A stretch of 64,000 nucleotides of DNA from Cryptosporangium aurantiacum. Lineage in GTDB: Bacteria; Actinomycetota; Actinomycetes; Mycobacteriales; Cryptosporangiaceae. Made by a program: the position numbers and the translations under genes. The stretch is from the NCBI RefSeq assembly GCF_900143005.1, contig NZ_FRCS01000010.1, forward strand, positions 124,001-188,000, in the 5' to 3' direction. The notes beneath the pieces were generated by a model, which saw nothing but the letters and a program-made list of their open reading frames with translations, was not told where the DNA came from and did no database searches. This document shows positions 26,657 through 31,531 of this stretch, one piece after another (within the stretch, counting starts at the first letter, position 1; the number at the start of each line of letters is the position of its first letter).

Positions 26657-27463
26657 TCAGCGCTTCCGGGCGATGCCTCCGGCCATCAGACGCTCGGCGA
26701 CGGTCAGCTCCTCGACGATCGGCTCGTCCGGCCGCCACTCCGGCAGCGACACCAAGCCCGGCGGGACCATCTCGAGGTCACCGAAGAAGCCCTGCAGCTC
26801 CTCCAGCGAGCGGAATCGACCGGTGCCCAGCACGCTGAGGTACGTCTCCTCGAGCGCGGCGGCCTCCGGGAACGACGCGCAGAAGCTGGTCATGAACAGG
26901 TAGCTGCCGGACGGCACGGCGTCCATGTAGGCCTTGGCGACGCCCTGCGGGTCCTCGCCGTCGTGCAGGTGGTGCAGGATGCCGACGAGCAGGACACCTA
27001 CCGGCTGCGAGAAGTCGATGAGGCGGTTCACCTCGGCGTTGGCGAGGACGGTCTCCGGGTCCCGCAGGTCGGCGGTGACCACGCTCGTGTTGTCGTTCTC
27101 AGCGAGGATGGCCCGGCCGTGGGCGAGAACGATCGGGTCGTTGTCGACGTAGACGACGCGGGACTCCGGCGCCGAAGCCTGGGCGATCTGGTGGGTGTTC
27201 TCCTGCGTCGGTAATCCGGAGCCGAGGTCCATGAACTGCCGGATGCCGGCTTCTTCGACGAGAAAACGGACGCCGCGCTTGAGGATCTGCCGGTTATAGG
27301 CGGCTACCTCGGGCAGCTGCGGCACGATCTTGAGCATTTCGCCGACCACGGCACGGTCGATCTCGAAGTTGTCCTTACCTCCGAGGACGACGTCGTAGGC
27401 CCGCGCGATGCTGGGTTTCGTGACGTCGATGCCGGTGGGAGCTGCTCGGTCCTGGTCGGCCAT
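26657..27463 (-). CDS. SAM-dependent methyltransferase (PF04672 / DUF574 family)
   Basis: 268 residues from the ATG at 27463, which has GAAGGGG seven bases upstream; a TTG 15 bases earlier is less likely. Diagnostic motifs are PSIARAYDVVLGGKDNFEID, FMDLGSGLPTQENTHQIA for SAM binding, YVDNDPIVLAHGRAIL, and DFSQPVGVLLVGILHHLHD. It is a paralogue of the 8552-9397 gene with the same motif order. It opens the methyltransferase / F420 reductase / mycothiol-enzyme operon, which looks like a small modification or detoxification pathway of unknown substrate. Confidence 0.9.
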   Translation of the reverse strand: MADQDRAAPTGIDVTKPSIARAYDVVLGGKDNFEIDRAVVGEMLKIVPQLPEVAAYNRQILKRGVRFLVEEAGIRQFMDLGSGLPTQENTHQIAQASAPESRVVYVDNDPIVLAHGRAILAENDNTSVVTADLRDPETVLANAEVNRLIDFSQPVGVLLVGILHHLHDGEDPQGVAKAYMDAVPSGSYLFMTSFCASFPEAAALEETYLSVLGTGRFRSLEELQGFFGDLEMVPPGLVSLPEWRPDEPIVEELTVAERLMAGGIARKR

Positions 27464-27608
27464 CTCATGCCCCTTCAAAGCGTCCGCCCTCGGCCGGACG
27501 GCATCCGGACGGCATCCTAGGGGACGATTCCGCGTTCCCGGGCGCTAATTCGACCACTGTGGATCGCTCGGGTGCACCCGTCAGCGACGAGACACGCAGC
27601 GTGCGAAA

Positions 27609-27635
27609 GCCGGGGAGCGATGTTCGCTCCCCGGC
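27609..27635. terminator. Hairpin terminator downstream of the tyrosine-rich small gene
   Basis: GCCGGGGAGCG (27609-27619) and CGCTCCCCGGC (27625-27635) form a perfect 11-bp stem around a 5-base loop. It begins 19 bases after the minus-strand stop at 27654 and is followed on that strand by TTTCG. It isolates the small gene from the methyltransferase operon downstream. Confidence 0.8.
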
Positions 27636-27653: not shown

Positions 27654-27782
27654 TCAGTAGCCGTAGTCCCAGCAGTAGTCACGCTTCTTGTGGTGGCGGC
27701 GACGGCGGCGCGGCTTGTAGCAGTCGTTGTAGTCGTAGTCGTTGCAGTGGTTGTTGTAGTCGTAGTCGTAGCAGCCGCTCAT
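27654..27782 (-). CDS. Tyrosine/cysteine-rich basic small protein (42 aa)
   Basis: A 42-residue open frame starting at ATG 27782. Its ribosome site is AGGAGG, nine bases upstream, the strongest in the area. A perfect hairpin terminator follows the stop, so it is a monocistronic gene. The protein has nine Tyr, four Cys (4, 13, 21, 37) and a run of Arg, His and Lys (residues 24-34). It begins with alternating Tyr-Asp (YDYDYN, then DYDYND) and ends WDYGY. No signal peptide and no recognised family. The longer frame upstream of this ATG is not protein-like, so this short start is preferred. Possible roles are metal, heme or nucleic-acid binding; none is shown. Confidence 0.65.
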   Translation of the reverse strand: MSGCYDYDYNNHCNDYDYNDCYKPRRRRRHHKKRDYCWDYGY

Positions 27783-27847
27783 GTCGTCCAGCCTCCTGAA
27801 TTTTGTTGTCCGGGGCCGTTCCCCGTGTGCCACTAGATTGGCCCGGA

Positions 27848-28759
27848 TCACCGCGCGGCTCGATCGGCCCGAGAACGCCCCGAACGTTCTCCTCCGAACA
27901 CTCCGACATCCACTACGGACGCCAGGAGAAGGGCCGCTCCGGCCGCGGCGGACAGGCTCAGACATTCGCCGAGCAGGGTGACGGCCAGGGCCGCGGCGGT
28001 CAGCGGTTCCAGCAGCGCGACGACGGTCGCGGTCGCCGCGCTGCTACCGCGCAGTCCCCGGAAGTACAGCAGGTACGCCACCGCCGTCGGGACGGTGGCG
28101 AGCAGGAACAACAGCGCGGCCGAGGCGAGCGAGAGGTCGACGCCGATGCCCGCGGTGGTGCCGGCAGCGACGGCGAGTCCGGTGCCACCCAGCAGGAAGC
28201 CGTAACCGGTCGAGGTGGCCTCGTCCAGCTCCGGGACGGGCCGCCGGCCGAGCAGCGTGAGCAGTGCGAACCCGGCACCGGCGAGCACGCTGAGCGCGGC
28301 GCCCGCGAGCGTCGCCCCGAGCGGTTGGCCGGTCGGCGCGCCGACGAGCAGAGCGAGGCCGAGAACGCCGGTGGCCACCGGTCGAACGTCCGCTGAAGTA
28401 GGAAGGCGACGCGTGGACAGCGCGTCGGACACCACAACGAGGATCGGCGCGGAGCCGATCGCGATCAGCGTCGCAACGGTGACCGAGCTGATCGCCACCG
28501 CCCCGAAGTAGCAGGCCTGGAAGGCCGCGGCGAGAGCCGCGACCGCGCCGATCCGGCGCCACGCGCGGGAACCGCGCGGCATCCGGCCGACGACCAGCAG
28601 AACAGCGACGAGGAGCCCGCCGCCGAGCAGGAGCCGGTAGGCGGCGACGGCAGGCGCGGACACGTGGCCGACCTCGGTGAGGGCGCGGCCGGTCACACCG
28701 CCGGTGCCCCAGCAGACACCGGCAGCGACGAGCAGGGCGAAGGAAGAACGAGAAGACAA
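27848..28759 (-). CDS. EamA/DMT family transporter
   Basis: 303 residues with ten hydrophobic helices in two EamA repeats. The start is probably a TTG at 28759 with GGAG about six bases upstream. The first repeat begins LLVAAGVCWGTGGVTGRAL and the second LSVLAGAGFALLTLLGRR. VTVATLIAIGSAPILVVV and VVALLEPLTAAALAV are the characteristic fourth and ninth helices, including the conserved EP motif. It is a small-molecule exporter of unknown substrate. A related gene is at 53419-54402. Confidence 0.88.
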   Translation of the reverse strand: MSSRSSFALLVAAGVCWGTGGVTGRALTEVGHVSAPAVAAYRLLLGGGLLVAVLLVVGRMPRGSRAWRRIGAVAALAAAFQACYFGAVAISSVTVATLIAIGSAPILVVVSDALSTRRLPTSADVRPVATGVLGLALLVGAPTGQPLGATLAGAALSVLAGAGFALLTLLGRRPVPELDEATSTGYGFLLGGTGLAVAAGTTAGIGVDLSLASAALLFLLATVPTAVAYLLYFRGLRGSSAATATVVALLEPLTAAALAVTLLGECLSLSAAAGAALLLASVVDVGVFGGERSGRSRADRAAR

Positions 28760-28884
28760 CGGAAGCTCCAGCAACGATCGAGGACACCGGTCGCGAAGAG
28801 CGGGACCCGATCGCGCGAACCCCGCTCAGGCGCGAGGCGGCGGGGTGACGAACAGTTGCTGGCGCACGAAAGTGAACGTAGCAG

Positions 28885-31502: not shown

Positions 31503-31531
31503 GCCCCGGAGTGCGGTGTTCACTCCGGGGC
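31503..31531. terminator. Bidirectional terminator
   Basis: GCCCCGGAGTG (31503-31513) and CACTCCGGGGC (31521-31531) form a perfect 11-bp stem with a 7-base loop. It lies between the convergent stops of the epoxide hydrolase and the HxlR gene, and covers the last codons of the latter. Confidence 0.8.

Follow-up and report, generated by a model that had tools for sequence, protein, structure and literature searches.

A short open reading frame of Cryptosporangium aurantiacum, found in the 64,000-nucleotide stretch of DNA that was analysed (the window), almost certainly belongs, as judged from sequence comparison, to a genus-restricted, dispersed multigene family of small genes that encode proteins of about 40 to 46 residues and give 10 to 21 matches per genome. 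The family is absent from all libraries searched, and by this measure it is a new protein family whose function is putative. Its recurrence is beyond chance: the frame has a copy identical over 129 nt, paralogues in its own genome and homologues in every species of the genus.

The window copy (27782..27654, minus strand) is translated into 42 residues, MSGCYDYDYNNHCNDYDYNDCYKPRRRRRHHKKRDYCWDYGY, comprising an acidic Tyr/Cys half, an RRRRRHHKKR run and a CWDY tail. The initial annotation had described a 42-residue product with nine Tyr and four Cys and an AGGAGG nine bases before the ATG; both descriptions were borne out, the composition by translation and the Shine-Dalgarno sequence by its position at 27797-27792, separated from the ATG by 9 nt (27791-27783) on the minus strand, which had not been stated. 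AGGAGG lies inside a shared leader, GGAGGCTGGACGAC, and the string of leader plus start, GGAGGCTGGACGACATGAGCGGC, is common to most family copies; since the leader is conserved, the start at 27782 can be regarded as fixed. A longer in-frame ORF of 103 aa reaches to 27965, and its upstream extension shows no conservation. The genomic context consists of a gene for a Methyltransf_19 S-adenosyl methyltransferase downstream (26657..27478, minus strand) and a gene for an EamA-family transporter upstream (27848..28774, minus strand). The frame had further been taken for a monocistronic, easily missed short gene that resembles no known family. Each of these readings was supported: the gene is real, family members in related genomes share its leader, start and hairpin and keep the Tyr/Cys positions, and no profile in Pfam, NCBIfam, PHROGs, PADLOC or PDB matched significantly. 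The refuting condition named beforehand, a lack of homologues with conserved Tyr/Cys, did not arise. Of the roles suggested from the composition (crosslinking, metal or heme binding, a modified peptide), heme binding received no specific support. What had been overlooked is that the short gene does not stand alone, but is one member of a dispersed, concertedly evolving and genus-restricted multigene family.

In its own genome (9.58 Mb, 44 contigs), a sequence search returned eight strong matches and additional more diverged ones; the paralogues have E values of 1e-14 to 1e-25, and the copy on contig C23 is identical to the window ORF over all 129 nt. A family profile search gave 10 (own genome), 17, 11 and 21 matches in four genomes, which represent every sequenced species of the genus and are labelled G000 (own), G001, G002 and G003. 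These copy numbers in draft genomes are lower bounds, because the assemblies break inside the gene: for four further own-genome copies (contigs C11, C21, C31 and C32) the contig stops at one and the same base of the ORF, which points to repeats left unresolved by assembly, and the G003 contigs C60 and C75 also break within a family gene. The profile found no member in one other genome of the same bacterial family or in some 690 further genomes from the order and class (two searched sets that partly overlap). Searches of further genome contigs and of viral and plasmid sequences, in which close relatives may be missing, retrieved no named record, and no description of such a family was found in the literature.

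An alignment of 30 distinct members over 56 columns revealed the invariant residues M1, S2, P24, R29, R34, C37, W38 and Y40. The window protein shows the family pattern of an MS..Y(D)Y N-terminus, a [KR]PR(2-5)..HHK[KR]R-like run and a CWDY tail. Among the members the basic run and the CWDY tail are steady, whereas the acidic Tyr/Cys half at the N-terminus is variable and changes its length by whole codons; CGC/CGT exchanges occur within the Arg run. In the conserved C-terminal half synonymous changes dominate, with dN/dS values of 0.10, 0.01, 0.45 and 0.10 within the four genomes. This pattern is indicative of purifying selection on the protein in its C-terminal half, three of the four genomes lying at 0.01-0.1. 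For the N-terminal half dN/dS exceeds 1 in three genomes, ratios that are unreliable because third positions are almost fixed. We were able to show by such comparisons that the family is a multigene one and, as read from its codons, a translated one; one and the same protein is encoded at eight loci of G001.

Codon usage in the family is extreme, with TAC in 322 of 322 Tyr codons and CGC/CGT in 91% of the Arg codons, compared with 47% in 198 neighbouring genes. We do not take the CGT/CGC preference as proof of high expression, since EF-Tu of the same genome lacks this bias (CGT in 4/25 and CGG in 9/25 of its Arg codons) and the family bias is stronger. Instead of high expression, the preference may stem from inheritance among the paralogues or serve to avoid (CGC)n or (CGG)n repeats. 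Among the Arg-core members whose composition was computed, Tyr, Cys, Trp, His and Met together make up 38-43% of the residues, including a His/Asp relative that has neither Tyr nor Cys. No hydrophobic signal sequence was present in the members computed, and most of these have no aliphatic residue except Met1. A single-sequence AlphaFold2 model has a mean pLDDT of 46, a value that says little on disorder but is weakly compatible with it.

A 77-bp block, AGTGTTGGGAACCGAACGTTCCGGGCGTCGCGnnGCCGATCGAGCCGnnnGCnGnTCCGCGCGAAGCTAGTGGCACA, precedes the genes and aligns without a gap across 42 copies from four species. In the window it occupies 27826..27902 on the minus strand (G000:C10:151826-151902) and overlaps the 3' end of the EamA gene as called. 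Its invariant columns are GT4-5, AC16-17, T20, GT27-28, GA38-39, G42, A64 and T68. The distal half, TGTTCGGAGGAGAACGTTCGGGGCGT (27875..27900, minus strand), with a dyad-like GTT..GAACGTTC and the invariant GT4-5, AC16-17, T20 and GT27-28, would be a putative activator site. Nearer to the gene, a candidate -10-like hexamer CAATCT (27835..27840, minus strand; alignment columns 63-68; family consensus GAAGCT) has an invariant A at position 2 (A64) and T at position 6 (T68), and lies 17 bp from a weak candidate -35-like TCGAGC (27858..27863, minus strand; columns 40-45). A sigma70 consensus scan returned nothing. No conserved RNA fold was found in the distal half when its first 35 bases were examined in eight copies, so the block is read as DNA; its spacing to the ATG varies among copies, as expected for a DNA element. 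Because one block is common to the copies, they are probably co-regulated and switched on together. Outside the genus, matches to the block profile were at chance level, at most 44 of 77 bases, a score that the best-matching random site of the window also reaches. No site of a sporulation regulator was recognised in the block. The box described for TcrA in the sporangium of Actinoplanes reads nnGCA(A/C)CCG-n4-GCA(A/C)CCGn (PMC12691653). By inspection, the 42-copy block holds at most one half-site of this box and does not fit the published pattern.

Searching the four genomes with the block profile mostly led to family members. The clear exception, L166 (G001:C1:8960595-8960714), has the same promoter block and the same type of hairpin and encodes 40 residues, MSHHRDDHGHWDHHDDHGKHRRRRRHHRKHRDENWGWGHS, in which every Tyr and Cys is gone and His/Asp stand instead, while the basic Arg/His/Lys run and the Trp are retained; it was found in G001 only, no other genome being matched. 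As far as this sequence can tell, Tyr and Cys are not essential to the design of the family, whereas the Arg/His/Lys run and Trp are retained. At another G001 locus (L164, G001:C1:3790795-3790870, minus strand) the block lies 113 bp before a sigma factor gene of the SigB/SigF/SigG family, and would there be either a co-opted promoter or the relic of a lost copy. In the own genome, a Tyr-rich frame of 37 residues, MSYGTETYEESGSAGTDYFCYENGYYYRATARPRDDR, with the leader GGAG..GGACGATGAGC, occurs at L168 (G000:C1:329210, minus strand); its block match is weak (45 of 77 bases, where chance alone gives up to 44), and the frame is a possible distant relative.

Downstream of the ORF, the terminator-like hairpin GCCGGGGAGCGAACATCGCTCCCCGGC (27609-27635, minus strand) begins 18 nt past the stop and forms a perfect stem of 12 bp with a 3-nt loop or of 11 bp with a 5-nt loop. 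Perfect hairpins with a stem of at least 11 bp are infrequent, about 5 distinct ones in the 64-kb window against 0.6 in mononucleotide shuffles. The perfect 11-bp hairpin that had been noted past the stop thus exists, with 11-12 bp; no clear U-tract follows it, and a terminator consensus scan did not call it. A hairpin just past the stop is found in nearly all family copies, with a stem of at least 11 bp in 41 of 44, and the stem sequences differ among copies. A hairpin of the same type, GCCCCGGAGTGCGGTGTTCACTCCGGGGC (31503-31531), follows an unrelated gene in the window; therefore, this type of terminator is probably ordinary for the genus.

Each copy is a cassette of about 320 bp consisting of the 77-bp block, the leader, the ORF and the hairpin, set between unrelated flanks. 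Between dispersed copies that are 91-94% identical, homology extends from about -120 to -138 relative to the ATG as far as about +50 to +60 past the stop, and mostly no further. One G002 copy also sits between Methyltransf_19 and EamA genes and is syntenic with the window copy, the flanks being orthologous, with 81% identity on the upstream side. The window ORF is nevertheless 100% identical to a paralogue in its own genome versus 94.6% to this G002 orthologue, which in turn is 99.2% identical to two paralogues in G002. Syntenic flanks together with the greater identity to the own paralogue indicate, at the level of sequence, concerted evolution within each genome. Tandem groups, among them four copies in about 2 kb in G001, were found, as were shortened copies, one frameshifted copy and promoter-plus-hairpin relics without an ORF; tandem groups, damaged copies and relics argue for a birth-and-death turnover. 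The block followed by the hairpin, with the ORF gone, was seen at L158 (G000:C1:976297), L155 (G002:C78:18788), L167 and L170, and the relic hairpin of L158 is nearly the same as that in an intact G002 copy (L076:2231). When an empty site was sought for a recent G002 copy, no locus matched the flanks on both sides.

We propose, with a probability of about 0.35, that the family supplies a dosage-amplified, co-regulated and disordered peptide made in quantity, which is bound to a polyanion via its basic run and whose remainder is prone to oxidation or cross-linking. The shared block would switch on all copies together and copy number would serve dosage, since one species has eight copies for one and the same protein; these identical products, together with the homogenisation and the common promoter, speak for dosage and not for diversity. 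The product would be an intrinsically disordered cytoplasmic peptide, as it has no signal sequence and almost no aliphatic residues. Its RRRRRHHKKR run would bind a polyanion, most likely nucleic acid, and the acidic remainder rich in Tyr, Cys, Trp and His might provide weak contacts, disulfide or dityrosine cross-links, or sacrificial oxidation, so that the peptide would act as a bulk structural or protective coat, perhaps in sporulation or stress. The proposal of a polyanion-bound bulk peptide follows from the fact that the most conserved part is a strong polycation run, that the presumably disordered peptide around it has many oxidisable residues, and that the run is kept in L166; binding, cross-linking, timing and location are inferred. 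The overall net charge of the peptide is near zero, and so weaker than that of true protamines. A bolder and rather unlikely extension would be a new class of bulk peptides, in which disordered diblock peptides of a dosage family (an acidic aromatic/thiol or His block plus an Arg/His/Lys block) condense with nucleic acid or a wall polymer and are then oxidatively cross-linked, a dedicated genus-specific regulator reads the 77-bp block, and Tyr/Cys and His/Asp represent interchangeable chemistries. If true, such a condensing, cross-linked diblock peptide would be categorically new.

The nearest rival to the bulk-peptide reading is metal or redox buffering, a tentative possibility in which Cys/His/Asp (or His/Asp alone in the variant) would bind Zn, Cu or Mn, or Tyr/Cys/Trp/His would quench oxidants, and the copies would give capacity in a metallothionein-like manner. 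The four or five Cys at similar places, with C21 and C37 nearly or fully invariant, are consistent with it, as is L166, where His/Asp replace Tyr/Cys and the total of oxidisable residues is unchanged; the N-terminal Cys, however, are not fixed, a long Arg run is unusual in a metallothionein, and the neighbours examined include no metal-sensor gene or transporter that accompanies the copies consistently. Quite improbable is a passive mobile cassette, a unit of about 320 bp that recombination or a transposase acting in trans would have spread, and whose peptide matters little or aids the spread. The sharp ends of homology between 91-94% identical copies in unrelated flanks and the several decayed copies, some reduced to promoter plus hairpin, would be explained in this way, but the protein is under purifying selection, some loci are orthologous across species, and inspection by eye recognised neither terminal inverted repeats nor target duplications.

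The proteins are short, rich in Tyr, Cys and Trp, multi-copy and share the start MSGC, and Tyr, Trp and Cys are common cross-link sites, all of which would suit RiPP precursors that are encoded at many dispersed loci and processed by a single distant maturation enzyme, in the manner of prochlorosins. We consider this distinctly improbable, because the C-terminal half is the most conserved and the N-terminal half the variable one, the reverse of a leader-core layout, and no maturase or exporter recurs among the neighbours examined (20 neighbours scanned with Pfam gave no candidate for a maturation enzyme); moreover, the copies are homogenised and not diversified. Two further explanations are very improbable. 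Runs of Tyr/Cys codons ahead of a hairpin and the co-oriented downstream gene in the window recall a cis-acting leader peptide or attenuator that senses Tyr/Cys supply and controls the next gene, yet the downstream gene differs from copy to copy and often lies on the opposite strand, and conservation of the peptide extends beyond the Tyr codons. Strong nucleotide similarity, an own promoter and a hairpin could belong to a non-coding RNA family with an incidental ORF, a reading contradicted by codon-pattern selection, by whole-codon indels and by Rfam, where only sub-threshold chance matches and none above the gathering score were obtained.

A better knowledge of this family is of interest, since 10 to 21 near-identical, homogenised copies with an ungapped 77-bp block represent a large investment in a protein absent from the searched libraries. 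Such a family is easy to lose, as gene callers tend to skip genes of this length and draft assemblies break within them. Owing to the shared leader, the whole family is testable with one CRISPRi guide, and a cross-linked or nucleic-acid-coating peptide would, if true, represent a novel bacterial material or means of protection.

Among known systems, the small acid-soluble spore proteins (SASP) of Bacillus are tiny intracellular proteins encoded by many dispersed single-gene copies under one developmental programme, with a dosage logic. By analogy, our mini-gene family is similar in its dispersed copies and dosage logic, but SASPs are longer, lack the Tyr/Cys/Arg-run design and have no sequence relation to it, no Pfam or NCBIfam match to alpha/beta or gamma SASP being found. 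Prochlorosin-type RiPP precursors are likewise numerous, dispersed short genes served by one enzyme; the mini-protein genes are likewise short, numerous and dispersed, but their C-terminal half is the conserved one and no maturase was found among the neighbours examined. Bacterial metallothioneins such as MymT, of about 50 residues, contain Cys and are non-hydrophobic. The mini-proteins are alike in these respects and in size, but have no match to a metallothionein profile, carry an Arg run and include a Cys-free relative. Mussel foot protein 3 (about 45 residues, Tyr- and Arg-rich, with many variants) is secreted with a signal peptide and its Tyr are hydroxylated; size, Tyr/Arg richness and multiple variants are shared, whereas neither a signal peptide nor hydroxylated Tyr was seen in the mini-proteins. 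Keratin-associated proteins (KRTAP) include Cys-rich and Gly/Tyr-rich types and undergo concerted evolution. They are multigene families of structural hair proteins of mammals (PMC4180150). Our family is like them by analogy in composition and evolution only, KRTAP being eukaryotic, unrelated in sequence and without an Arg/His/Lys run. In kind, the family described here resembles, by analogy, other families in which gene dosage serves a small structural or protective protein.
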